39,229 bases of DNA. Source: a virus. The DNA is taken from the IMG/VR virus record IMGVR_UViG_3300014838_000007, positions 1 to 39,229 of that record; one strand, written 5' to 3'. The notes beneath the pieces were generated by a model. The model was not told where the DNA came from, made no database searches, and was given only the letters and a program-made list of their open reading frames with translations. A program made the position numbers and the translations under genes. Shown here one piece after another: positions 2,024 through 19,039 of the stretch; position 1 is the first letter of the stretch; each line of letters opens with the position of its first letter.

Positions 2024-2093
2024 GACTCATTAGCTCAAGTTTAGAGTCCCGCATTGTTGCCGGGCGATGGAGGTTCAAGTCCTTCATGAGTCA
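2024..2093 (+). tRNA. tRNA-Thr (UGU), with a mispaired anticodon stem
   Basis: Acceptor GACTCAT/ATGAGTC with discriminator A at 2093. D stem GCTC/GAGT. The anticodon arm covers about 2047-2063 with loop ATTGTTG, so the anticodon is TGT. T arm GGAGG-TTCAAGT-CCTTC. The closing pair of the anticodon stem is C-C, so the functional loop may be 9 nt. About 70 nt because of a short D loop. No encoded CCA. It begins three bases after the preceding tRNA-like gene. Confidence 0.75.
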
Positions 2094-2097
2094 TTAT

Positions 2098-2174
2098 AGT
2101 TTCGTAGCTCAATTGGTAAGAGCAGTACTCTTATACGGTACCGGTTGTAGGTTCAAGTCCTACCGAAACTACCA
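2098..2174 (+). tRNA. tRNA-Ile (UAU), CCA encoded
   Basis: Acceptor AGTTTCG/CGAAACT (2098-2104/2164-2170), discriminator A and genomic CCA (2172-2174). D stem GCTC/GAGC with GG in the loop. Anticodon stem GTACT/GGTAC with loop CTTATAC, so the anticodon is TAT at 2132-2134. T arm GTAGG-TTCAAGT-CCTAC. All stems pair, with one G-U. It would read AUA directly, whereas most bacteria read AUA with a lysidine-modified CAU tRNA. This is the best-formed tRNA of the cluster. Confidence 0.88.
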
Positions 2175-2297: not shown

Positions 2298-2368
2298 GGT
2301 CATTTAATGTAATGGTAGCATGCCTTTCTCATCGTTAGGATGCGGTGGTTCGATTCCATCCGTGGCCG
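2298..2368 (+). tRNA. tRNA with CAU anticodon (Met or Ile2 type), weak anticodon stem
   Basis: The cloverleaf spacing is exact: acceptor GGTCATT/CGTGGCC (6 of 7 pairs including G-U), D stem ATG/CAT, anticodon stem CCTTT/TTAGG, loop CTCATCG with CAT at 2330-2332, T arm GGTGG-TTCGATT-CCATC, discriminator G. The two pairs closing the anticodon stem are both T-T, leaving three real pairs and an effective 11-nt loop. G73 is unusual for Met or Ile. No CCA encoded. Amino-acid identity is uncertain. Confidence 0.65.
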
Positions 2369-2873: not shown

Positions 2874-3201
2874 CGATATATCAGGAAGAACATTTGGTAG
2901 ACTTAAAGTAATTTGCAAAGGAGAAATTCCGGTGAAAAGTGGAAATTACCCTTGGTTATGCCAATGTGCTTGCGGTAATTACAAGTACGTAATGAAAGGC
3001 CATTTGACTAAAGGTGATATCTTATCGTGTGGATGCTTCCGACGAGAAAGAAACACCAAATCAACATGGAGTTTCTGGAATGGATACCGAAGCAGCAATA
3101 AAAATAGAGCTACCTCTAAACTACAAATGTCGTCATTACCAAGAACCATTTTGGAAAGCTGCAAGGGATGGATACAAAAGATTCGTACTTGTCTGGCATA
3201 G
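2860..3201 (+). CDS. HNH/AP2-associated DNA-binding domain protein, nuclease part missing
   Basis: A 113-residue product from ATG 2860, with GGGGA upstream. Residues about 7-55 carry the pattern SGRTFGRLKVI...CQCACGN...HLTKGDILSCGC, the zinc-containing domain that precedes HNH nuclease or AP2 domains in phage homing-type proteins. No HNH motif follows. The last roughly 40 residues overlap the start of the terminase gene in another frame and have no domain character. This is best read as a truncated homing-endonuclease remnant, or a stand-alone DNA-binding protein. Confidence 0.6.
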   Translation: MRRNSDISGRTFGRLKVICKGEIPVKSGNYPWLCQCACGNYKYVMKGHLTKGDILSCGCFRRERNTKSTWSFWNGYRSSNKNRATSKLQMSSLPRTILESCKGWIQKIRTCLA

Positions 3202-4417
3202 ACGTGCCGGAAAAGAAAAGACTTGCTGGAATTATCTTATCATGCAAGCATGTAAGCGCGTGGGTATCTACTACTATTTCTTCCCTCATTTCGGCCAAGG
3301 TCGAAAGATTCTTTGGGATGGAGTGGATAAAAGCGGATATAGATTATTAGATCACATACCTAAAGAACTAGTTGATGGAAACTTCAACGGAACTGAAATG
3401 AAGGTAAGGCTAAAGAATGGAAGTCTCATACAAGTTATTGGTACTAATAATATTGATTCTATCGTTGGTACAAATCCAATTGGGTGTGTATTTACTGAAT
3501 ACTCTTTACAAGATCCTACCGCCTGGACTCTTATCCGTCCGATTCTACGCGAAAACGGAGGGTGGGCAGTATTTAACTTTACGCCAAGAGGAGCTAACCA
3601 TGGTAAAGAGATATTTGACATGGCTAAGCGTACTACAGATTGGTTTTGTCAACTTCTTACTGTGGAAGATACTGGCGTCTTAACTGAAGCAGATATTCAG
3701 AAAGAGCGCGACGAGGGAATGTCTGAGGACATGATCCAACAAGAGTACTATTGTTCATTTACTTTAGGGGTAGAGGGTTCATATTATGCAAAATACGTTC
3801 AAGATGCTAAAGACGAAGATAGAATCGGAAACGTCGCTTGGAATAAGCAAAGTAGAGTCTATACTGTCTGGGACCTGGGCTACGGGGACAGTACATCAAT
3901 TATCTACTATCAGGTTATTGGAAATGCAATCCATGTCATTGACTACTATGAATCGCATGGAGAGGGATTGCCTCATTACGCGCGAGTACTTCTTGATAAG
4001 CCGTACATTTACGGAGATCATTACGCACCACATGATATCGAGTCCCACGCTTTTAGTAGTGGTTTATCAGCAAAAGAGGTTGGATCTTCCTTGGGAATCA
4101 AATTCACAACCCTTCAGACGCTTAAGTTACGAATTGAAGACGGGATCGAGGCTTTACGCGGTATTTTCCCTAGGATGTACATTGATCAAACAAAATGCAA
4201 AGATTTGCTCAAATGCTTAGAAAACTATAGAAAAGAATTCGATCCTAGACTAGAAGTGTACAAAGAGCGTCCCCGGCATGATAAGTATTCGCATGGGGCA
4301 GACGCAGCCAGATATATGGCTATTGCTGTAAAAGTGTATGTTGACAACCGTCACGAAGGCGTGAGCGATAAACAAGCGGATAATTGGTATTATGAAAATA
4401 ACCCAAGGTTTGATTGA
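3080..4417 (+). CDS. terL: Terminase large subunit
   Basis: A 445-residue DNA-packaging motor. The ATPase has a Walker A variant H-R-R-A-G-K-E-K-T at residues 40-48 and a Walker B CVFTE at 136-140. The RNase H-like nuclease has acidic residues D265 and D270 (WDLGYGD), D319 (APHD) and D408 (HGADAAR). The ATG at 3080 has GGAG eight bases upstream and is preferred over GTG 3014, which would lie deep in the preceding gene. The likely small subunit is about 4.2 kb away around the circle (37582), an unusual separation. Confidence 0.93.
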   Translation: MDTEAAIKIELPLNYKCRHYQEPFWKAARDGYKRFVLVWHRRAGKEKTCWNYLIMQACKRVGIYYYFFPHFGQGRKILWDGVDKSGYRLLDHIPKELVDGNFNGTEMKVRLKNGSLIQVIGTNNIDSIVGTNPIGCVFTEYSLQDPTAWTLIRPILRENGGWAVFNFTPRGANHGKEIFDMAKRTTDWFCQLLTVEDTGVLTEADIQKERDEGMSEDMIQQEYYCSFTLGVEGSYYAKYVQDAKDEDRIGNVAWNKQSRVYTVWDLGYGDSTSIIYYQVIGNAIHVIDYYESHGEGLPHYARVLLDKPYIYGDHYAPHDIESHAFSSGLSAKEVGSSLGIKFTTLQTLKLRIEDGIEALRGIFPRMYIDQTKCKDLLKCLENYRKEFDPRLEVYKERPRHDKYSHGADAARYMAIAVKVYVDNRHEGVSDKQADNWYYENNPRFD

Positions 4418-4770
4418 TGAAAATAGAAGTAATTTTGAAGCCATGTCCTTGGTGTAGACAAACTCCGGATATTTGGATGCCGATTAGTGAACCGACTTGG
4501 TGTTGGAAGATTCTATGCATGAACTTAGATTGTAATATGAGACCTTCCAGTCCCCATGTGGCTATAAGAAATACTACAAAGAAAAACTTTTATCAATTTC
4601 ACAATAAATTAGAAAATCTTGCTTTTTCTTGGAATGGAGGTAATCCTTTCAGACCTTATGAGATGAAGGTGATAGATTTAAAAGAATTACCGGAATTGGC
4701 TAGCTTAAATGAAGGTGCAGAATATTTATGTAATAGAGATCCTTGGTTCAAAAGAATAGATGCAATTTAA
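4417..4770 (+). CDS. Lar-like restriction-alleviation family protein
   Basis: A 117-residue protein with KPCPWC at residues 8-13 and a second pair C34/C39 inside W-K-I-L-C-M-N-L-D-C-N, then an aromatic SFAW-type stretch (AFSWN). This is the arrangement of the Lar/restriction-alleviation zinc-ribbon family common in phages. ATG 4417 overlaps the terminase stop. Members are usually annotated as modulating type I restriction, but most are untested, so the role here is inferred. Confidence 0.6.
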   Translation: MKIEVILKPCPWCRQTPDIWMPISEPTWCWKILCMNLDCNMRPSSPHVAIRNTTKKNFYQFHNKLENLAFSWNGGNPFRPYEMKVIDLKELPELASLNEGAEYLCNRDPWFKRIDAI

Positions 4771-5146: not shown

Positions 5147-5379
5147 TGACAGCTCCAATCAATGAAAGTAAGACATTTTCACCTTTAATAAAGTGCGATA
5201 CCTGTTACATGTTTAAGGAAAAGACTTACATAAGAAACATTGACCAAAGGTTAATGAGAATATGTAAAGAATGTCTAGATATTTTAGTAAGAAATCAACA
5301 AAGTAAAACGCAGATAAAGAACAAGAAAGTAAAGATGAAAAGTCCACAAGAAGTAAATCACCAAACCTGGGACATGTAA
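5146..5379 (+). CDS. Small two-CxxC zinc-binding-type protein, paralogue of the gene at 33
   Basis: A 77-residue protein with C17/C20 and C40/C43 about 19 residues apart, then a lysine-rich tail. The layout CDTC...CKECLDILV matches CHKC...CTKCIIELF in the protein at 33. TAATG overlap links it to the RNA ligase gene, so it may be made together with the RNA-repair enzymes, although nothing shows a functional link. Confidence 0.7.
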   Translation: MTAPINESKTFSPLIKCDTCYMFKEKTYIRNIDQRLMRICKECLDILVRNQQSKTQIKNKKVKMKSPQEVNHQTWDM

Positions 5380-6065
5380 TGGAATATCCTAAGATACATT
5401 CGTTGTATAAAAGACATGGCTGGTACTTCGATCAAGATAAGAAGAAGTCTCCGGACTATCAAAAAGGTAGACAATCTTTTATAGTTGGTGACTATGCCGA
5501 GCCCGAGTTTGGTAACATTAAAAGATGGCGAATAGATGAAAAGATTGATGGTACTAATATTCGTATTTTTTGGGATAGAGATGTAGCAATGGATGGACCA
5601 CTAAATGTAAGATTTGGTGGTAGAACAAAAGATGCACAAATTCCTTGTCACTTACTTGAATATTTACAAAATCATTTCACTAAAGAAAGATTAGAAGCTG
5701 TTTTCCCTTTTGATACTGCAACGCGTGGAGTTCTTTTTGGTGAAGGATATGGTCCAAAAATACAAGCCTGTGGTGGAAATTACAGAAAAGAATGCGGTTT
5801 TATACTTTTTGATGTTAATATTGGTGGATGGTGGCTAAAAAGGGAAGATGTTAAATCTATTGCTGATCAATTGTTAATTCCTATGGTACCGGATTTAGGC
5901 ATTATGACCGAGGAAGAAGTGGTAGAATTTGTTAAATCTAAACCATTGAGTCAATGCAGTATTACTCCTCATGTTATGGAAGGTGTGATGTGCCGATCTG
6001 AGCCATTAATGCTCTTTCGAAATGGTAAACCAATTCAATTTAAACTTAAATGTAAGGAATTTTAA
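5379..6065 (+). CDS. RNA ligase, T4 Rnl2-like
   Basis: A 228-residue ATP-dependent RNA ligase of the nucleotidyltransferase superfamily. Motif I is K55-I-D-G-T-N60 with the lysine that takes AMP, motif III is FILFDV near 141-146, motif IV is EGVM at 201-204, and motif V is F-K-L-K at 221-224. Its length suits a ligase core with a reduced C-terminal domain. Rnl2-type enzymes seal nicks and breaks in duplex-like RNA. It starts by TAATG coupling, ends by TAATG with the GroES gene, and lies 240 bases from RtcB: an RNA-repair block. Whether it joins tRNA halves is not shown by sequence. Confidence 0.88.
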   Translation: MEYPKIHSLYKRHGWYFDQDKKKSPDYQKGRQSFIVGDYAEPEFGNIKRWRIDEKIDGTNIRIFWDRDVAMDGPLNVRFGGRTKDAQIPCHLLEYLQNHFTKERLEAVFPFDTATRGVLFGEGYGPKIQACGGNYRKECGFILFDVNIGGWWLKREDVKSIADQLLIPMVPDLGIMTEEEVVEFVKSKPLSQCSITPHVMEGVMCRSEPLMLFRNGKPIQFKLKCKEF

Positions 6066-6310
6066 TGCTAAAGCCAATAAATGACTACATAGTAGCTAAA
6101 AAAGTAGAAGAAACCAAGAAAGGAATGCTTATTCTTAGGGAAGAAAAGTTTAATGTGATCTATGACGTTTGCGCAGTTTCAAATAACATTGAAGATGTGA
6201 AAGTAGGGGACAGAATTATGATTGAAAAGTATCAATTTCAACAGATTGACATTGAAGATGAGCCTCATTTTTTGATTAACATCAAGCATGTACTTGGTAT
6301 TATTGAATGA
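6065..6310 (+). CDS. GroES-like co-chaperonin
   Basis: An 81-residue protein with the GroES beginning (L-K-P-I-N-D-Y-I-V) and a short mobile loop carrying a hydrophobic tripeptide (ETKKGMLIL, residues 15-24), which in GroES and T4 gp31 contacts GroEL. The VGDRI segment near residue 46 is also typical. Slightly shorter than bacterial GroES. No GroEL is encoded, so it would use the host GroEL, for example to fold a capsid protein. It lies between two RNA ligase genes, with ATGA overlap to RtcB. Confidence 0.85.
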   Translation: MLKPINDYIVAKKVEETKKGMLILREEKFNVIYDVCAVSNNIEDVKVGDRIMIEKYQFQQIDIEDEPHFLINIKHVLGIIE

Positions 6311-7479
6311 GTAAACTTAAAGTCTTCGGAGATCACGAAGAAAATACATTGGCTCAGATGAAAGTAATCTGCGAGGATGAACGCGTTAAACATGCCGTTC
6401 TTTGCGCAGATGGACACCTTGGATATTCCGTCCCTGTTGGTGGCGTTGTAGCCTATGAAGGCATGATCAACGTTAATGGGGTGGGTTTTGATATTGCTTG
6501 CGGAAATAAGGCCGTCTTGACCGATTTAAAAGGTCTTGAAGTTAGAGCGAATATCTATAGAACAATGAATGAAGTTCAGAAACACATAAGTTTCGGGATT
6601 GGGAGAAAGAATAATGAAAAAGTCGATCATTCAATCTTCGGAGATCCAATATGGAGTGAAATTGAATTGCTTAAAACTCTTAAAGATAAGAGTATGGCGC
6701 AATTGGGGACAGTTGGAAGCGGAAACCACTATGTGGATATCTTTACAGATGAGCTTGATAGGATTTGGATTGGCGTTCATTTTGGGAGTCGCGGTCTCGG
6801 TCATAGTATCGCTACTCATTTCATAAAAGCTGGAGGGGGAATAGATGGAGTCCACGCAAAGCCAGTTATATTTGATGAAGATTCAGACCTCGGATGCCAA
6901 TATCTTAAGTGCATGGAACTTGCTGGTCGATATGCTTATGCTGGGAGAGATTGGGTTTGCGACAGAGTTGCGAAGATATTGCGCGGGAATATCGTCGAGG
7001 AAGTACATAACCACCACAACTTTGCATGGAAAGAAAGCCATTTCGATAAAGAGTACTGGGTCATTAGAAAAGGATCAACTCCTTCTTTCCCAGGTCAAAA
7101 GGGATTTGTTGGAGGCTCTATGGGAGATATATCAGTTATCCTCGAAGGAATCGAAGGAAGTGAATCGAGAAATTCACTTTACTCTACAGTCCATGGAGCA
7201 GGACGTGCAATGGGAAGAAATCAAGCCAAAGGAAAAGTCAATAGAAGAACCGGAGCTAGAATCTCTGATGGGCTTGTCTCCCAATCAGCGCATGATGAAT
7301 GGATTAAAAGAATTGGGGTGGAAATTCGAGGAGGGGACCTAGATGAATCACCCTTAGCATATAAGCGCATCGAGAAAGTTTTAGATTGCCATAAAGACAC
7401 AATTAAAATATTACATACATTAAAGCCTATTGGTGTCGCAATGGCAGATTCTCGGGTTGTTGATCCCTGGCGCGATTAG
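6307..7479 (+). CDS. rtcB: RtcB-type RNA ligase
   Basis: A 390-residue GTP-dependent RNA ligase that joins 3'-phosphate or 2',3'-cyclic phosphate ends to 5'-OH ends. Visible signatures: A-D-G-H at 34-37, GVGFDIACG at 58-66 (metal Cys65), GSGNH at 137-141, HFGSRG at 158-163, HNHHN at 234-238, GGSMGD at 269-274 and the guanylylation histidine H296 in STVHGAGR. All core ligands appear present, so it should be active. The usual activator Archease was not seen. Together with the Rnl2-type ligase upstream it could repair both kinds of RNA break. Confidence 0.92.
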   Translation: MSKLKVFGDHEENTLAQMKVICEDERVKHAVLCADGHLGYSVPVGGVVAYEGMINVNGVGFDIACGNKAVLTDLKGLEVRANIYRTMNEVQKHISFGIGRKNNEKVDHSIFGDPIWSEIELLKTLKDKSMAQLGTVGSGNHYVDIFTDELDRIWIGVHFGSRGLGHSIATHFIKAGGGIDGVHAKPVIFDEDSDLGCQYLKCMELAGRYAYAGRDWVCDRVAKILRGNIVEEVHNHHNFAWKESHFDKEYWVIRKGSTPSFPGQKGFVGGSMGDISVILEGIEGSESRNSLYSTVHGAGRAMGRNQAKGKVNRRTGARISDGLVSQSAHDEWIKRIGVEIRGGDLDESPLAYKRIEKVLDCHKDTIKILHTLKPIGVAMADSRVVDPWRD

Positions 7480-7534: not shown

Positions 7535-8017
7535 ATGCCTTATTTAGGTTTTAAAGGCCCTCATACGGATGAAACAAAAGAAAAAATTGCGTTAAAACTC
7601 AAGGGGAAAAGACCGGGCGGTTTTAATATAAAAATTGAATGTGAATACTGCAAAAATCAAATTGCAAAACCTAATTTAAAAAGACATCAAATCTCATGTA
7701 AAAGACTTTATGAATGTTTGCATGTTTTTCCAGATGGGATTTCCTTGGTAAAACTTAAACATATGAATATTTGTTTAAGAGGTAAGTATAAAATAGATAT
7801 TTACGATTATGTTTGTATGCATGAAAACCAAAATGGAAAATGTAAAATTTGTCAAAAAAAAGAATCTATTTTATGTATTGATCATTGTCATTTAACTAAT
7901 AAAATAAGAGGGCTTCTTTGTAGACATTGCAATCTTATATTAGGAAAATGGAATGATAATATTGAAATTTTTGAATCTGCCATCAAATATTTAAAAGACG
8001 ACCCTTATAAGGATTAA
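7535..8017 (+). CDS. NUMOD3 plus endonuclease VII-like protein
   Basis: A 160-residue protein from ATG 7535 with AAGGA upstream. Residues about 8-25 (GPHTDETKEKIALKLKGKRP) match the NUMOD3 DNA-binding motif of homing endonucleases. A zinc-finger-like CEYC...H...C region follows at about 35-55. The C-terminal half carries the recombination endonuclease VII fold: GKCKIC, IDHCH and GLLCRHCN, with zinc ligands and the DHCH nuclease motif. Combined with its own promoter, this suggests a free-standing homing-type nuclease, though resolution of branched DNA is also possible. Confidence 0.82.
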   Translation: MPYLGFKGPHTDETKEKIALKLKGKRPGGFNIKIECEYCKNQIAKPNLKRHQISCKRLYECLHVFPDGISLVKLKHMNICLRGKYKIDIYDYVCMHENQNGKCKICQKKESILCIDHCHLTNKIRGLLCRHCNLILGKWNDNIEIFESAIKYLKDDPYKD

Positions 8018-8019
8018 TT

Positions 8020-8316
8020 ATGACAAGTCCATTTACAAGACCAAATGATACTTCGACTGGCGGAGCAGGAGGCGGAGGATGCGGCGGTTATTCGCAAGGT
8101 TCCGGTAGAGTTTCAGTACAAAACCCTCCTCGCGCTCGCCCTTTTCCTTGGCCTTATCCCGCTTCTGCTACTCAAGGTGCAGTTGGGGGAGCTGGAGGAA
8201 GTGGGCGCGTTAGCGTTCCTATAACACCTTGGTATCAACCATTTAAACCTTACTGGCCCTATGCCGTCCCTGATCAATACTATCGAGGACTACCAACCAA
8301 TCCTTTGAGGTCTTGA
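8020..8316 (+). CDS. Gly/Pro-rich low-complexity protein
   Basis: A 98-residue protein, unusually rich in Gly, Pro and aromatic residues, with a repeated GG-x-GG...SGRVSV unit (near residues 17-33 and 53-66) each followed by a Pro/Trp/Tyr-rich segment. Starts three bases after the previous gene. Such proteins next to head genes can be virion decoration or assembly proteins, but this is a guess from position only. Confidence 0.6.
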   Translation: MTSPFTRPNDTSTGGAGGGGCGGYSQGSGRVSVQNPPRARPFPWPYPASATQGAVGGAGGSGRVSVPITPWYQPFKPYWPYAVPDQYYRGLPTNPLRS

Positions 8317-8690: not shown

Positions 8691-8719
8691 TGACAAATTA
8701 AAATTTTATCTTGTATAAT
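8690..8719 (+). promoter_or_regulatory. Sigma70-like promoter of the virion gene operon
   Basis: ATGACA at 8690-8695 (5 of 6 to TTGACA), an 18-base spacer and a perfect TATAAT at 8714-8719. It lies 28 bases before the portal ATG at 8747 and would drive the long rightward structural block. Confidence 0.7.
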
Positions 8720-8746
8720 GGGGTTAATCTCATTCAAGGTAAAATA

Positions 8747-10894
8747 ATGTCAAGTCCGATGTCTGATTATTCTAATTCTCAGGATTCAACCGAGTTTTTA
8801 GAGCATTATCGCAAAGAAGTTATAAAAAACGATCCTCGATTAGAGTTCCACCAAGATATCATTAAAGACTTCGGAGAATCCTATGAGCGCTCTTATCAAT
8901 TGTGGAACACGTTTTATGCCGAAGCATATAAAGACCTCTCTTATTATCTCGGCAATCAATGGTCGCTTGAGGAACTTGCCTATCTCAATAATCAACGTAG
9001 ATCTTCATTCACTTATAACAAAATTCGTAGACTTATCAATCTCGTCCAGGGATATCAAAGAAAAAATAGATTAGCTAGTATTGTAAGTCCAATTGAGGGT
9101 TCTTCTGAAGCTACAGCAAAACAGTTTACCGATGTAATGCAGTATGTAATGCAAGCTTCTGATGGTTACGAAGCTATAAGCGATGCTTTTAAGGGTGCTT
9201 TGACTACGGGTATCTCGTTTCTCTCGCCATATATCGATTATCGAAATGATCCGGTTTCCGGTGATATCAAATTTCATCGAGACGACTGGAATGCCGTAAT
9301 CTTAGACCCCTTCTTTACTAAACGCGATCTATCTGATTGCTCTTTCTTAGCTAGAAGAAAATACCTTTCTAGAACTGAAGTAATTTCACTACTTCCAGAT
9401 AAGGAAGATATAGTCAAAGCCCTACCTTGGGGATCACGAGACGACAAATTTACTTACATGCCCTATGCGCGTCAATGGGGTATGCAAAAACTACTAAACT
9501 ACAATGAATACTGGCGAACTAAGTGGGATATTAAAGATGTGCTTGTTGATATGGTTACTGGTGAGACACGCGAGTGGGATGGGGATAAGAAACGTCTGCA
9601 ATTATATCGCGAATCTTTTCCTCAAATTGAAGTCATGCGTAAACCAGTCAAATCGGTCGAGCTAGGCATTATTGTTGAGGGAGAGCTACTCTACTACGGT
9701 AAAGACCCATTTGGCCTTAACGACTACCCTTTTGTGCCTTTCATGGCAATATGGGAACCATCCTACGACCTCTTTAATTGGAAATGTCAATCTCTAGTAA
9801 GACTGCTTCGTGACCCGCAGACCGAAATAAATAAACGACGATCTAAGATGGTTGATATGTTGGATTCTCAATTGAATTCGGGATGGATCGCCAAGACAAA
9901 CTCAGTAAGCAATCCTACTTCTTTGTACAAATCCGGACAAGGGCAAGTGATCTTCCTTAAACCCGAAGCTCAAATGACAGATGTACAAAGATTGAACTCA
10001 CCTGGTATCGATGCTTCAATGTTCCAATTAGAAGCAGAATTCGAAAAAGATCTATTCGATATCTTAGGTTTAAGTCCTGAAAACGTTGGTATGGCAGAGA
10101 ATGAGAAGATCGAGACTGCCGGAGTACTTGCCAAGGCAAGACAAGCTGCTGGCTGGGTACCTATGCAGGATGTATTTGATGGACTTAGAGAGTCACAAAA
10201 ACTACTAAGTAGAAAAGTACTTAAACTAATGCAATTGAACTTCACTCCAGAGAAAATCCAGCTCATTACTAAGGAAAAACCTACCGACGAGTTCTACAGT
10301 AAGATCTTTGGTCAATATGATGTTTCCGTTGAAGAAGGTGTACTTACCGATACTCAACAACAATCTCAATTTATTCAACTTTCTGCACTTAAATCGATGG
10401 GAGTCAACATTACCGATGAAGACCTTATTAAAAACAGTAGTTTACATGATAAGAAGCCTATGGAAGAACGTCTTAACGCTGAAAGACAAGCTGCTATGCA
10501 GGCTCAACAAACTCAGACGATGCAAGCGATGCAACACCAAGCCGTCCTTACAGACTCTATTAATGCGAAAGCCTTATCCGATCAGTCATTGGCTGCGGAG
10601 AGAATGGCTAAGATCCAACTTGATCAAGCGTTAAATGCCGAAAGAATTAGCCGTGCCGAAGAAGAAAGAACTGCGAGCGCTCTAAATCTAGTTAAGGCAG
10701 TTAAAGAACTACAAGGTATGGATCTAGACCAATTGATTAAGAAGATTCAAGTACTTAATGGTATCGAAATGAATCTTAAAGCAGATGAAAGGCAAGAAAA
10801 AGTAGATAATGGACAAATCCCTAATATGCCTTCACCTACTAAGGCACAAGACGAACTAAAGCAATCACAACAGCAAAACTCCGAAGCAGCCTAA
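8747..10894 (+). CDS. Portal protein, P22-like
   Basis: A 715-residue portal, the dodecameric ring at the capsid vertex through which DNA passes. The N-terminal region carries GNQW, a FTYNKIRRLINLVQGYQRKNR block and an FKGALTTGISFLSPYIDYR block typical of P22-family podovirus portals. The C-terminal 200 residues are Gln/Ala-rich helices with heptads, like the P22 barrel. ATG 8747 has AAGG upstream; the frame extends upstream to a TTG at 8711, but that start would overlap the -10 box. First gene of the virion operon. Confidence 0.88.
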   Translation: MSSPMSDYSNSQDSTEFLEHYRKEVIKNDPRLEFHQDIIKDFGESYERSYQLWNTFYAEAYKDLSYYLGNQWSLEELAYLNNQRRSSFTYNKIRRLINLVQGYQRKNRLASIVSPIEGSSEATAKQFTDVMQYVMQASDGYEAISDAFKGALTTGISFLSPYIDYRNDPVSGDIKFHRDDWNAVILDPFFTKRDLSDCSFLARRKYLSRTEVISLLPDKEDIVKALPWGSRDDKFTYMPYARQWGMQKLLNYNEYWRTKWDIKDVLVDMVTGETREWDGDKKRLQLYRESFPQIEVMRKPVKSVELGIIVEGELLYYGKDPFGLNDYPFVPFMAIWEPSYDLFNWKCQSLVRLLRDPQTEINKRRSKMVDMLDSQLNSGWIAKTNSVSNPTSLYKSGQGQVIFLKPEAQMTDVQRLNSPGIDASMFQLEAEFEKDLFDILGLSPENVGMAENEKIETAGVLAKARQAAGWVPMQDVFDGLRESQKLLSRKVLKLMQLNFTPEKIQLITKEKPTDEFYSKIFGQYDVSVEEGVLTDTQQQSQFIQLSALKSMGVNITDEDLIKNSSLHDKKPMEERLNAERQAAMQAQQTQTMQAMQHQAVLTDSINAKALSDQSLAAERMAKIQLDQALNAERISRAEEERTASALNLVKAVKELQGMDLDQLIKKIQVLNGIEMNLKADERQEKVDNGQIPNMPSPTKAQDELKQSQQQNSEAA

Positions 10895-12876: not shown

Positions 12877-13815
12877 ATGGCAATCACAGGACTAACACAG
12901 TTGCCTCCAGAGGTAAGAACTTATTTCGATAGACTCTTACTTACTCTAGCGCGACCTTATTTTATTTATGACCTTTTTGCACAGAAAAGACAGATTCCAA
13001 TGAACTCTGGAGACCAAATGGTTTTCAGACGTTATGGTACTCTGACCGCTGCTACAGTGCCTTTAACAGATGGACAAACTCCTCCAGGAGACCAATTATC
13101 TGTTACAGACTTTAAAGCCCAAATTCAATGGTACGGATCATTTACGACTATTACGGACCAGGTCCAATATGTCGTCCAGGACCGTGTGTTGAATGAAGCA
13201 ACTAAAGTTTTAAGTTTACAATTAGGATTGACAATCGACACCCTAATTAGAGACATGATGGTTTCTACAGCTTCTACTATTGCCTGTAGCAATGGTTTGA
13301 ACGGTAATACTCCAACTGAGATCACTGATGCAGATATACAAACTGCTGTTATTGCTCTTAGACAAGGTAATGCAAGACTTATGACTAACCCACTTCCTGG
13401 GGAAAATAAGTTCGGTACAGCACCCGTTAGGGCTTCTTACTGGGGATTCATGTCTGTAGATATGCAAGCGGACCTTGAGGCTGTTTCTAGCTTCATCTCA
13501 GCAGCTAACTACCCTAATCCTATGAATGCATTAGAGGCCGAATGGGGTTCTACACGTAACGTAAGATGGCTTTTGAATACAAATGGTTATTCAAATGGTG
13601 CTTCACCAAACGTCTATTCTTCATTCATAATGGGTCAAGAGGCCTATGGTGTTGTTAGATTAGGTGCTAAAGAAGCCGAGTTTATTGTGAAGCCTTTAGG
13701 TGCTTCCGGAACTGCTGACCCGTTGAATCAAAGAGGTACATGTGGATACAAGTATCCGTTTGCTACTCGTATTTTGAATGACAACTGGATTACACGCTTA
13801 ACAAGTACGCTATAA
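12877..13815 (+). CDS. Major capsid protein, N4-gp56 family
   Basis: A 312-residue HK97-fold capsid protein. It shows the order seen in N4-gp56 family coats: an N-terminal helix (PPEVRTYFDRLLLTLARP), then a SGDQMVFRRYGTLTAATVPLTDG segment read in pieces, then QWYGSFTTITDQV, a long spine helix with EATKVLSLQLGLTIDTLIRDMM, and a C-terminal NDNWITRLTST end. The ATG follows the scaffold by 14 bases, and the gene is 10 bases before a putative decoration protein. Confidence 0.88.
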   Translation: MAITGLTQLPPEVRTYFDRLLLTLARPYFIYDLFAQKRQIPMNSGDQMVFRRYGTLTAATVPLTDGQTPPGDQLSVTDFKAQIQWYGSFTTITDQVQYVVQDRVLNEATKVLSLQLGLTIDTLIRDMMVSTASTIACSNGLNGNTPTEITDADIQTAVIALRQGNARLMTNPLPGENKFGTAPVRASYWGFMSVDMQADLEAVSSFISAANYPNPMNALEAEWGSTRNVRWLLNTNGYSNGASPNVYSSFIMGQEAYGVVRLGAKEAEFIVKPLGASGTADPLNQRGTCGYKYPFATRILNDNWITRLTSTL

Positions 13816-16865: not shown

Positions 16866-19039
16866 TGCAACCCTTCTTAATTGGCGAAGCTAAAACAGGT
16901 CTTTTCAACTATCTCGAGCCATGGCAAAGACCATTGGACGCTTTCGAGCCTCTAGATAATGCCTTCGTTTACCGAGGATCAATTCAGAAAAGAGCGGGTT
17001 TCTCAGTGTTTGGTAGAATGCCTTATGAAGATGTAATCGCTGTTGGTAATGGAGGAATGAACTATAGCGGTACACTTCTTACCGTCCCAATATCTCCAGG
17101 CTCTCTAGTTATCACAGATGGAATTGAGACTTTCACTGACACAGGTCTGGGTACTTTAACTAGAACGCCTGTTTCAGGCGGAACGAATACAATTAACTAC
17201 ACAACCGGTGCTTGGTCGATTCAGTTCAATAATAATGTCACGGCAGGTACTTTAATCACCGCTTCTTATGTACCTCAAACTACATCCCCAAGAGCTATCA
17301 TGGGTATCAAGATGTGGACTAATGAAAGTACCGGCGGTTACAAGTCCATTATTATGGACACTCGCAGAGCTGCTGAATATGTTGATAGCACTCAAACTTA
17401 CATTCCTATTAATGGAGTAAGCCAAGTTATCTACCAAGGAGACGGGACAACTCCCACTATCACAGTTGGCACAGGATGGATTGCTTTAGCTCCTTATACT
17501 TCAGGTCTTGCCCCTTTTTCAATTTCTATCACAGATGGAACGTCCACTATAACAGACGATGGGGCAGGAAATTTAAGTGCTTCCGTAAATTTCGCAGCTG
17601 GTGGTACGGTTAATTATACGACAGGTGCCATTCATTTAGTTTTTACCTCAGCTCCCGCCATTACTGTTTCGATTACATTAACAGCAACATTGACCGGTGA
17701 TTACTTCACAGGAACTACGTCTAACTTCTTCAATGCTATCAATTGGCAAGGACAGATGTATATGACGAATAATGTTGATCCCATTACACTTTATAATGGA
17801 TTAACCACTCCCGGGACTCTTAGCCGTCCACCATTTTCCATCACGCAAGCTAACCGCGCAGCATTCATTAACAATATCGGAACTTGCCTTGACATCGACG
17901 TTTATAAGAATAGGATTCTCGTTCAAAGACCCATCATTATTAATGATGGTGCTGGTAACGGTCTCGCTCCTCAAAGTATACGTTATTCCGCCATTCTTAA
18001 TCCTACAAATCTCGTAGCGGACGTGGCCGGAAATGGAGGAGAACTCTCGGCACCTACTGATGATTTTATCCAAAGCTCCGAGTTCTTGCGAGATCAACTC
18101 ATAGTCTTCTTCACTAATACTACCTGGACTTTTAGGTATACTGGATCGGATTTCGACCCCTTTAGGTGGGATAAGATTAATGCCAGCAAATCCACAAGTG
18201 CGCCGTATGGTACCATTGATTATGATGAAAGAGTTACAGCGATGGGTAGTAAAGGTCTCATTGCTTGTGACGGTGTCAATGTCCAACGCTATGACGTTTC
18301 GGTTATTGACCAATTCTTGGATATTAATCAGAATGCTTTTCCTCAATGTTTTGGTCTCCGTTTTGATACTTTAAATCAATCTTGGATGTTATATCCTTCC
18401 ATGGAAAATAACGCAAGTCTTTCGGATAAAGTGTTAGTTTACAATATCATTGAAAGCACATGGGCAACCTATTCTTTACCTTTATCTTGTCTAGGTCTTT
18501 ACTTCATTTCTAGAGATGTTACATGGAATGATTTCGCGGTTGGTACTCCTTTAGGGACTGCATATCCCAATTGGGATTCTGCTGATATTCCATGGAATAA
18601 CTATCTTACTCAAGGAAGAGCGCCAACTTTACTTGGAGGCAGCTTCAACGGTTACATCTACCAAATGAATCAAGGTGAAACCGATAATGGAGTTAACATT
18701 ACTTCAAATATTACTTCGGCTAAGTGGAATCCATTTTCTACAATCGGTCAAAAAGTTCAATTCGGTTGGATAGATTTTTACTATGAAATAGAGCCAGAAC
18801 CTCCAACAAATCCGGCTGTTATTACGCTTACATTTTATACTGACAATACTAATTCAGTGACAGCACAGAGAACCCTTACTTTAGATGGCCCTGTTGGATC
18901 TACTTCAGCCATGAAAAGAATCTACATCAATAATATTGGTGAGTTCTTAAAAATGAACATGAATTCTAGTTCTACAGCTACATTCAAGATATTCGGAATG
19001 GTACTTTGGGCTAAACCTTCTGGTAGGTGGACTCCATGA
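16865..19039 (+). CDS. Tail hub / stabilisation protein (P22 gp10-like)
   Basis: A 724-residue beta-rich protein. Residues about 1-45 (GLFNYLEPWQRPLDAFEPLDNAFV in pieces) and the central region with DDFIQSSEFLRDQLIVFF, TWTFRYTG and GLIACDGVNVQRYD resemble the propeller-like stabilisation proteins that plug the neck of short-tailed phages. Two copies of a beta module with INYTTGAWSIQFNN and VNYTTGAIHLVFTS lie at about 60-140 and 195-275, and a third is in the adaptor at 15367. The stop overlaps the next ATG. Confidence 0.65.
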   Translation: MQPFLIGEAKTGLFNYLEPWQRPLDAFEPLDNAFVYRGSIQKRAGFSVFGRMPYEDVIAVGNGGMNYSGTLLTVPISPGSLVITDGIETFTDTGLGTLTRTPVSGGTNTINYTTGAWSIQFNNNVTAGTLITASYVPQTTSPRAIMGIKMWTNESTGGYKSIIMDTRRAAEYVDSTQTYIPINGVSQVIYQGDGTTPTITVGTGWIALAPYTSGLAPFSISITDGTSTITDDGAGNLSASVNFAAGGTVNYTTGAIHLVFTSAPAITVSITLTATLTGDYFTGTTSNFFNAINWQGQMYMTNNVDPITLYNGLTTPGTLSRPPFSITQANRAAFINNIGTCLDIDVYKNRILVQRPIIINDGAGNGLAPQSIRYSAILNPTNLVADVAGNGGELSAPTDDFIQSSEFLRDQLIVFFTNTTWTFRYTGSDFDPFRWDKINASKSTSAPYGTIDYDERVTAMGSKGLIACDGVNVQRYDVSVIDQFLDINQNAFPQCFGLRFDTLNQSWMLYPSMENNASLSDKVLVYNIIESTWATYSLPLSCLGLYFISRDVTWNDFAVGTPLGTAYPNWDSADIPWNNYLTQGRAPTLLGGSFNGYIYQMNQGETDNGVNITSNITSAKWNPFSTIGQKVQFGWIDFYYEIEPEPPTNPAVITLTFYTDNTNSVTAQRTLTLDGPVGSTSAMKRIYINNIGEFLKMNMNSSSTATFKIFGMVLWAKPSGRWTP

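Follow-up and report, generated by a model that had tools for sequence, protein, structure and literature searches.

The gene block downstream of terL in this phage, consisting of an Rnl2-type RNA ligase, a GroES-like co-chaperonin and an RtcB RNA ligase, is most readily explained, in our judgement and with moderate confidence, as optional RNA-repair cargo that would maintain functional tRNAs of host and phage under RNA-cutting defences. The window, meaning the whole stretch of DNA that was analysed, corresponds to a 39,229-base virus record with an exact 123-bp direct terminal repeat, which closes the genome at approximately 39.1 kb. The three ORFs of the block lie on the plus strand exactly where an earlier note on this DNA had placed them, and the coupling overlaps it described (TAATG, TAATG and ATGA) are seen in the sequence. 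PHROGs assignments agree with the Pfam calls of RNA_ligase, Cpn10 and RtcB, and the Pfam matches are far above chance. The description of the phage as polymerase-less also held, as the assembly is closed and no polymerase match was found among ORFs of at least 300 aa; instead of a polymerase, the genome carries an O/DnaD-like initiator, a RecT-like protein, exonucleases and RusA. Its structural genes include a P22-like portal, terL and a major head protein. The phage is a temperate-style podovirus that depends on its host's polymerase. The features discussed below are listed in Table 1.

Table 1. Positions of the RNA-ligase block, its flanking genes and the tRNA cluster in the 39,229-base window.
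Feature	Position	Strand	Evidence
tRNA-like unit, class-II shape, 30-nt hairpin in anticodon loop	1902..2020	+	ARAGORN intron mode; fold z = -3.1; strict scan
tRNA-Thr (TGT)	2024..2093	+	
tRNA-Ile (TAT)	2098..2174	+	
tRNA-like, mismatched anticodon stem, possibly CAT	2298..2368	+	Rfam tRNA 36.5 bits
Terminase large subunit, terL	3014..4417	+	PHROG terL 5.8e-25; conserved; upstream anchor of variable zone
Rnl2-type RNA ligase, 228 aa	5379..6065	+	Pfam RNA_ligase 1.4e-13
GroES/Cpn10-like co-chaperonin, 81 aa	6065..6310	+	Pfam Cpn10 8e-7, over cut-off
RtcB RNA ligase, 390 aa	6307..7479	+	Pfam RtcB 1.4e-64
EndoVII-like nuclease, weak NUMOD3 motif	7535..8017	+	Pfam Endonuclease_7 2.2e-18
Small conserved gene, downstream anchor of variable zone	8020..8316	+	Homologues of 51-82% identity in most portal relatives
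P22-like portal protein	8711..10894	+	Pfam P22_portal 6.6e-80

Both ligases are apparently intact, judging from their residues. H296 of RtcB sits in the HGAGR motif and is the guanylylated histidine, among the invariant active-site residues. The protein aligns with P. horikoshii RtcB. In an alignment with E. coli RtcB, the eleven residues corresponding in E. coli numbering to D75, C78, N167, H168, H185 and R189, and likewise to H281, N282, H337, R341 and R345, were identical in 80/80 phage homologues and in 82/82 others, the latter nearly all bacterial. The nine residues of the metal- and GMP-binding active site (the eleven less R189 and N282) are all present, and the protein is predicted to be an active RtcB. 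In the Rnl2-type ligase, KIDGTN occupies residues 55-60, and the alignment of this protein with 20 relatives showed KxDGTN, E122, F144-D145, E201-G202 and K222-x-K224 to be invariant (21/21), which is the T4 Rnl2 pattern with motifs I, III, IIIa, IV and V. T4 Rnl2 was the best PDB relative by profile (E=1.5e-6), and a fold search with the AlphaFold model of the ligase (mean pLDDT 87.6) returned T4 Rnl2 (E=3.6e-9) and TbREL1 first. Catalytic mutations fixed in relatives, which the earlier note had regarded as fatal to its reading, did not appear in any of the 80 RtcBs or 21 ligases, and the substitution patterns indicate purifying selection (dN approximately 0.2, dS near saturation).

The architecture of the Rnl2-type enzyme places a limit on what the pair may accomplish. 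It consists of the nucleotidyltransferase domain only, its C-terminus lying just past motif V, and the T4_Rnl2_C domain found no match in it, so it departs from the full architecture of T4 Rnl2. The C-terminal domain of T4 Rnl2 is required for adenylylating RNA 5'-phosphates, and the truncated enzyme acts on pre-adenylated ends only. Given the missing domain, the claim that the two ligases together cover both chemistries of RNA break rests on an unproven step; the putative nucleotidyltransferase looks functional and may or may not seal ordinary 3'-OH/5'-P breaks alone. Truncated T4 Rnl2 is itself used with pre-adenylated adapter (PMC12409363).

The block is accessory cargo in a variable zone that spans from terL to the conserved small gene before the portal. 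In L259, whose terL and portal are 84% and 81% identical to ours, only approximately 370 bp separate terL from the small gene, and the nearest portal-chosen relatives likewise have a short terL-to-portal interval. Elsewhere the zone holds a ligase only (L276, L277), GroES only (L268, L280), GroES and a ligase (L265), or GroES, RtcB, EndoVII and a ligase (L034/L278); its other annotated cargo includes calcineurin-like phosphoesterases, a DNA methylase, helicase domains and HNH/EndoVII nucleases. At the start of the zone in this genome, positions 4414-4770 show a weak match to a Lar-type restriction alleviation protein.

Searches with RtcB and with the ligase yielded 203 and 12 IMG/VR relatives, respectively. 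In a sample of 33 phages, mostly of 38-42 kb, RtcB was present in 26/33, RNA_ligase in 20/33 and GroES in 12/33, counts that do not represent natural frequencies, as the sample was picked via RtcB or ligase (mostly RtcB). Among 23 relatives chosen by portal, many of them partial, the corresponding numbers were 0/23, 6/23 and 7/23, and among 19 picked by capsid protein, an intact RtcB was found in 1/19 and RNA_ligase in 9/19. Vertical inheritance of the block was rejected on the basis of the 0/23 portal relatives with RtcB. On the portal tree at least 10 changes are needed for RtcB and 19 for the ligase, and gain and loss of both are therefore frequent. Since the closest phage relatives do without RtcB, it is not required for growth in general. 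RtcBs 61-75% identical to ours occur in phages with far more diverged portals, indicating that RtcB moves between lineages. The RtcB clade showed no conserved bacterial neighbour that might hint at function. In G065, a degraded C-terminal RtcB remnant (3845-4021) lies near an intact Rnl5 and GroES and probably reflects recent RtcB loss.

An EndoVII-like gene, which may assist RtcB mobility, adjoins RtcB in five phages (this genome, where it follows RtcB directly and this copy bears a weak NUMOD3 motif, and L018, L019, L032 and L034). Together with the many gains and losses, these five loci would be expected if homing-type nucleases carried the block about as largely selfish or drifting cargo of no great benefit to the phage. 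We consider this extremely doubtful, as purifying selection keeps the catalytic residues and the reading frames.

The neighbourhood of RtcB and ATP-type RNA ligases argues for joint RNA repair. RtcB lies within 0.6 kb of such a ligase in 8 of the 14 phages that have both (several of the 14 are close kin), whereas positions drawn from single-ligase phages and paired at random would fall within that distance in approximately 6% of cases. Three ligase groups pair with RtcB in this way: the short Rnl2-type seen here, an Rnl5/NgrRnl-like group that matches Naegleria Rnl (G001, G002, G006, G011, G025, G071), and a short unassigned pair (G010, with related genes in L002 and L052). The eight close neighbourhoods and the three different groups support a joint role, although across the portal tree RtcB is no predictor of an ATP-type ligase. 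The earlier note had proposed searching for the order Rnl2-GroES-RtcB in other phages; the trio does recur, but with the Rnl5-like ligase in place of the Rnl2-type one, and the order RtcB-Rnl5-GroES-terL is repeated in L003/L004, L012, L015, L017, L024 and L037. The Rnl5-like enzyme, related to the Naegleria gruberi RNA ligase (PDB 5COT), thus occupies, in relatives, the position next to RtcB and GroES that the Rnl2-type gene has here; it differs in having an extra N-terminal domain and does not occur in this genome.

A gene for an MPPED2-like metallophosphoesterase, a candidate 3'-end healing enzyme, was observed in 28 related phages, often next to RtcB or Rnl genes and sometimes overlapping them (e.g., L040:3093-3938, L271:5498-6154, G016 and G071). 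It is absent from this genome, and its co-occurrence with either ligase was not significant (p=0.2-0.3).

The GroES-like protein passes the curated Cpn10 cut-off (29.4 bits against 21.1) and at 81 aa is below standard GroES length; from its sequence, a GMLIL stretch would fall at the mobile-loop position. The earlier note had suggested that it folds one of the ligases or serves the capsid, and neither suggestion fared well. If GroES were a dedicated partner of one or both ligases and the trio a single functional unit, the overlap of ligase and GroES here and of Rnl5 and GroES in L033 and L037, the RtcB-Rnl5-GroES order in several relatives, and the spacing of at most 1.8 kb in 11/13 phages with GroES and a ligase would follow. 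However, GroES lies no more than 2.9 kb from terL in 21/21 phages with both, with or without ligases, and its distance from RtcB is 12-15 kb in six phages. It occurs without either ligase, and many phages with a ligase or RtcB have no GroES, so a dedicated partnership is very improbable. A role as a capsid necessity is weakened by capsid proteins that are 93-96% identical between phages with and without GroES. GroES is probably an independent accessory that travels with the terminase region, a separate passenger from the ligases.

Upstream of terL, the genome carries the odd tRNAs to which the earlier note had referred: tRNA-Thr(TGT), tRNA-Ile(TAT), a poor third tRNA and a 119-nt tRNA-like unit with an insert. 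The last has a 7/7 acceptor, a T-arm and a variable arm, and removal of its 30-nt hairpin leaves a 7-nt loop. Fewer units of the cluster are reported by ARAGORN at default settings, and default tRNA finders miss enlarged units. A strict scan detected 58 tRNA-like units in 64 related phages, of which 10 are enlarged; shuffled genomes yielded none. Among the enlarged ones, at least the unit of G030 has a fold unlike that of a tRNA. Three kin enlarged units (G011 17989-18091, G065 and G070) differ in acceptor sequence and keep the pairing. In three stretches of control phage DNA, 11 strict units were found and none was enlarged, too few to prove an excess in the related phages. Enlarged or interrupted anticodon arms were seen in tRNA-like units of G011, G025, G026, G034, G065 and G070. 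The T4 species 1 RNA (rnaC) is similar in that it lies in a tRNA cluster and has a T-arm, a long extra arm and an enlarged anticodon-side arm; no sequence kinship with the 1902-2020 unit is shown, and a literature search on species 1 RNA returned nothing relevant.

These RNAs raise the alternative that the ligases serve the phage's own transcripts, with RtcB, alone or with the Rnl2-type enzyme, processing or resealing the 1902-2020 RNA. RtcB-type tRNA-splicing ligase works in this manner in archaea. The class-II shape of the unit, the 7-nt loop left when the hairpin is taken out, and the ten enlarged units against 0 in shuffles agree with such a role. A precedent is the haloarchaeal tailed virus HGTV-1, which also has RtcB, Rnl2-family ligases and tRNA genes and for which viral tRNA intron removal and repair were proposed, although its host is archaeal and it has 36 tRNA genes (PMC8651126). 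On the other hand, no splicing endonuclease was identified, splicing would create a loop with anticodon AAC and U37, which is odd in a class-II tRNA, and enlarged units occur without clear enrichment alongside ligases, including in G070 and G043, which have neither RtcB nor any other ligase. We regard this alternative as unlikely. A broader form, in which the RtcB-Rnl pair acts on enlarged tRNA-like RNAs generally, is a quite improbable extension. As introns, the short non-self-splicing inserts would be excised and sealed by phage enzymes; as sacrificial decoys, the enlarged RNAs would draw anticodon nucleases and then be resealed. RtcB and Rnl were not clearly overrepresented in phages with enlarged units, which leaves the link to the ligases as a hypothesis only.

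A tie between tRNA genes and dual ligases was also considered. In the first sample, tRNA genes were present in 11/13 dual-ligase phages and 4/20 others (p=0.0004, uncorrected). The association was not significant with independent pairs on the portal tree, and the sole dual-ligase phage of a second sample was without tRNA; we regard it as weak.

For the preferred reading, RNA repair as counter-defence, the intact residues, the low dN/dS, the cargo-like distribution, the RtcB-Rnl neighbourhood and the nearby tRNAs all spoke in favour, and of what the earlier note had proposed it was the GroES partnership that fell away. RtcB enzymes join 3'-phosphate or 2',3'-cyclic-phosphate ends to 5'-OH RNA in one GTP-dependent step, and the phage enzyme would rejoin such ends. 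They are produced by RNases that work without a metal, among them HEPN or PrrC-type anticodon nucleases and MazF- or colicin-like toxins. Adenylated or 3'-OH/5'-P ends would fall to the Rnl2-type enzyme, perhaps assisted by a partner. In this way the two would preserve tRNAs during an active RNA-cutting defence, with the tRNAs encoded by the phage as a supplement. The substrate, the defence targeted and the benefit are proposed from the genes and their company, and the specific tie to anticodon nucleases is one that we infer.

The enzymes could instead repair other RNAs under stress, such as MazF-cut 16S rRNA or mRNA, in place of tRNAs cut by antiphage nucleases. This would suit the weak tRNA association and the religation of 16S rRNA by E. 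coli RtcB after MazF cleavage, as attributed to Temmel 2017 in PMC10272220. Against it, this genome has its tRNA genes upstream of the block and the phage ligases studied to date point to tRNA, and we hold it to be rather unlikely.

Two further features of related phages deserve mention. In L011/G005 (IMGVR_UViG_3300048897_000013), the standard code puts TGA stops into terL, portal and ligase, all of which are open in code 4; this relative apparently translates TGA as an amino acid. The major capsid gene (homologues of our 12877-13815) is interrupted in L266, L268, L273, L275, L277, L344 and L346, apparently at different residues. Those interrupted genes that were scanned gave no Rfam intron match at the gathering threshold, and the interruptions may accordingly be inteins, unusual introns or homing insertions.

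The T4 Pnkp/Rnl1 system repairs PrrC-cut tRNA-Lys by first healing the ends and then sealing them with Rnl1. T4 Rnl1 and Rnl2 are phage RNA ligases with an established or presumed role in countering RNA damage, and our ligase shares the motifs and fold of Rnl2; T4 differs in its heal-then-ligate route, in place of which this phage has a one-step RtcB and an Rnl2-type enzyme without the C-terminal domain. Jumbo phages carry RtcB with Rnl1/Rnl2 sets, all three being present, for instance, in BcepSaruman and BcepSauron, which infect Burkholderia (Iyer et al. 2021, PMC7824862), and these sets likewise combine two unrelated RNA ligase classes and were read as specialised repair against different RNase effectors. 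Unlike them, the phages described here are podoviruses with closed, polymerase-less genomes of approximately 39-40 kb and have the ligases side by side with GroES, and no end-healing 5'-kinase/3'-phosphatase of the T4-like Pnkp/Rnl1 type was found among the approximately 29 proteins of this genome that were scanned.

The occurrence of RtcB and Rnl in one virus is therefore already published and is not new here. These data extend paired RNA-end repair, described for giant phages, to podoviruses of 40 kb, for which 2 kb is a high price, and show that different ATP-type ligases repeatedly ended up beside RtcB in one variable locus. The most original thread is that enlarged tRNA-like RNAs may be the ligases' neglected partner. 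With near-empty, ligase-only and dual phages that have similar capsids, the question of why phages carry RNA ligases becomes testable in small genomes.
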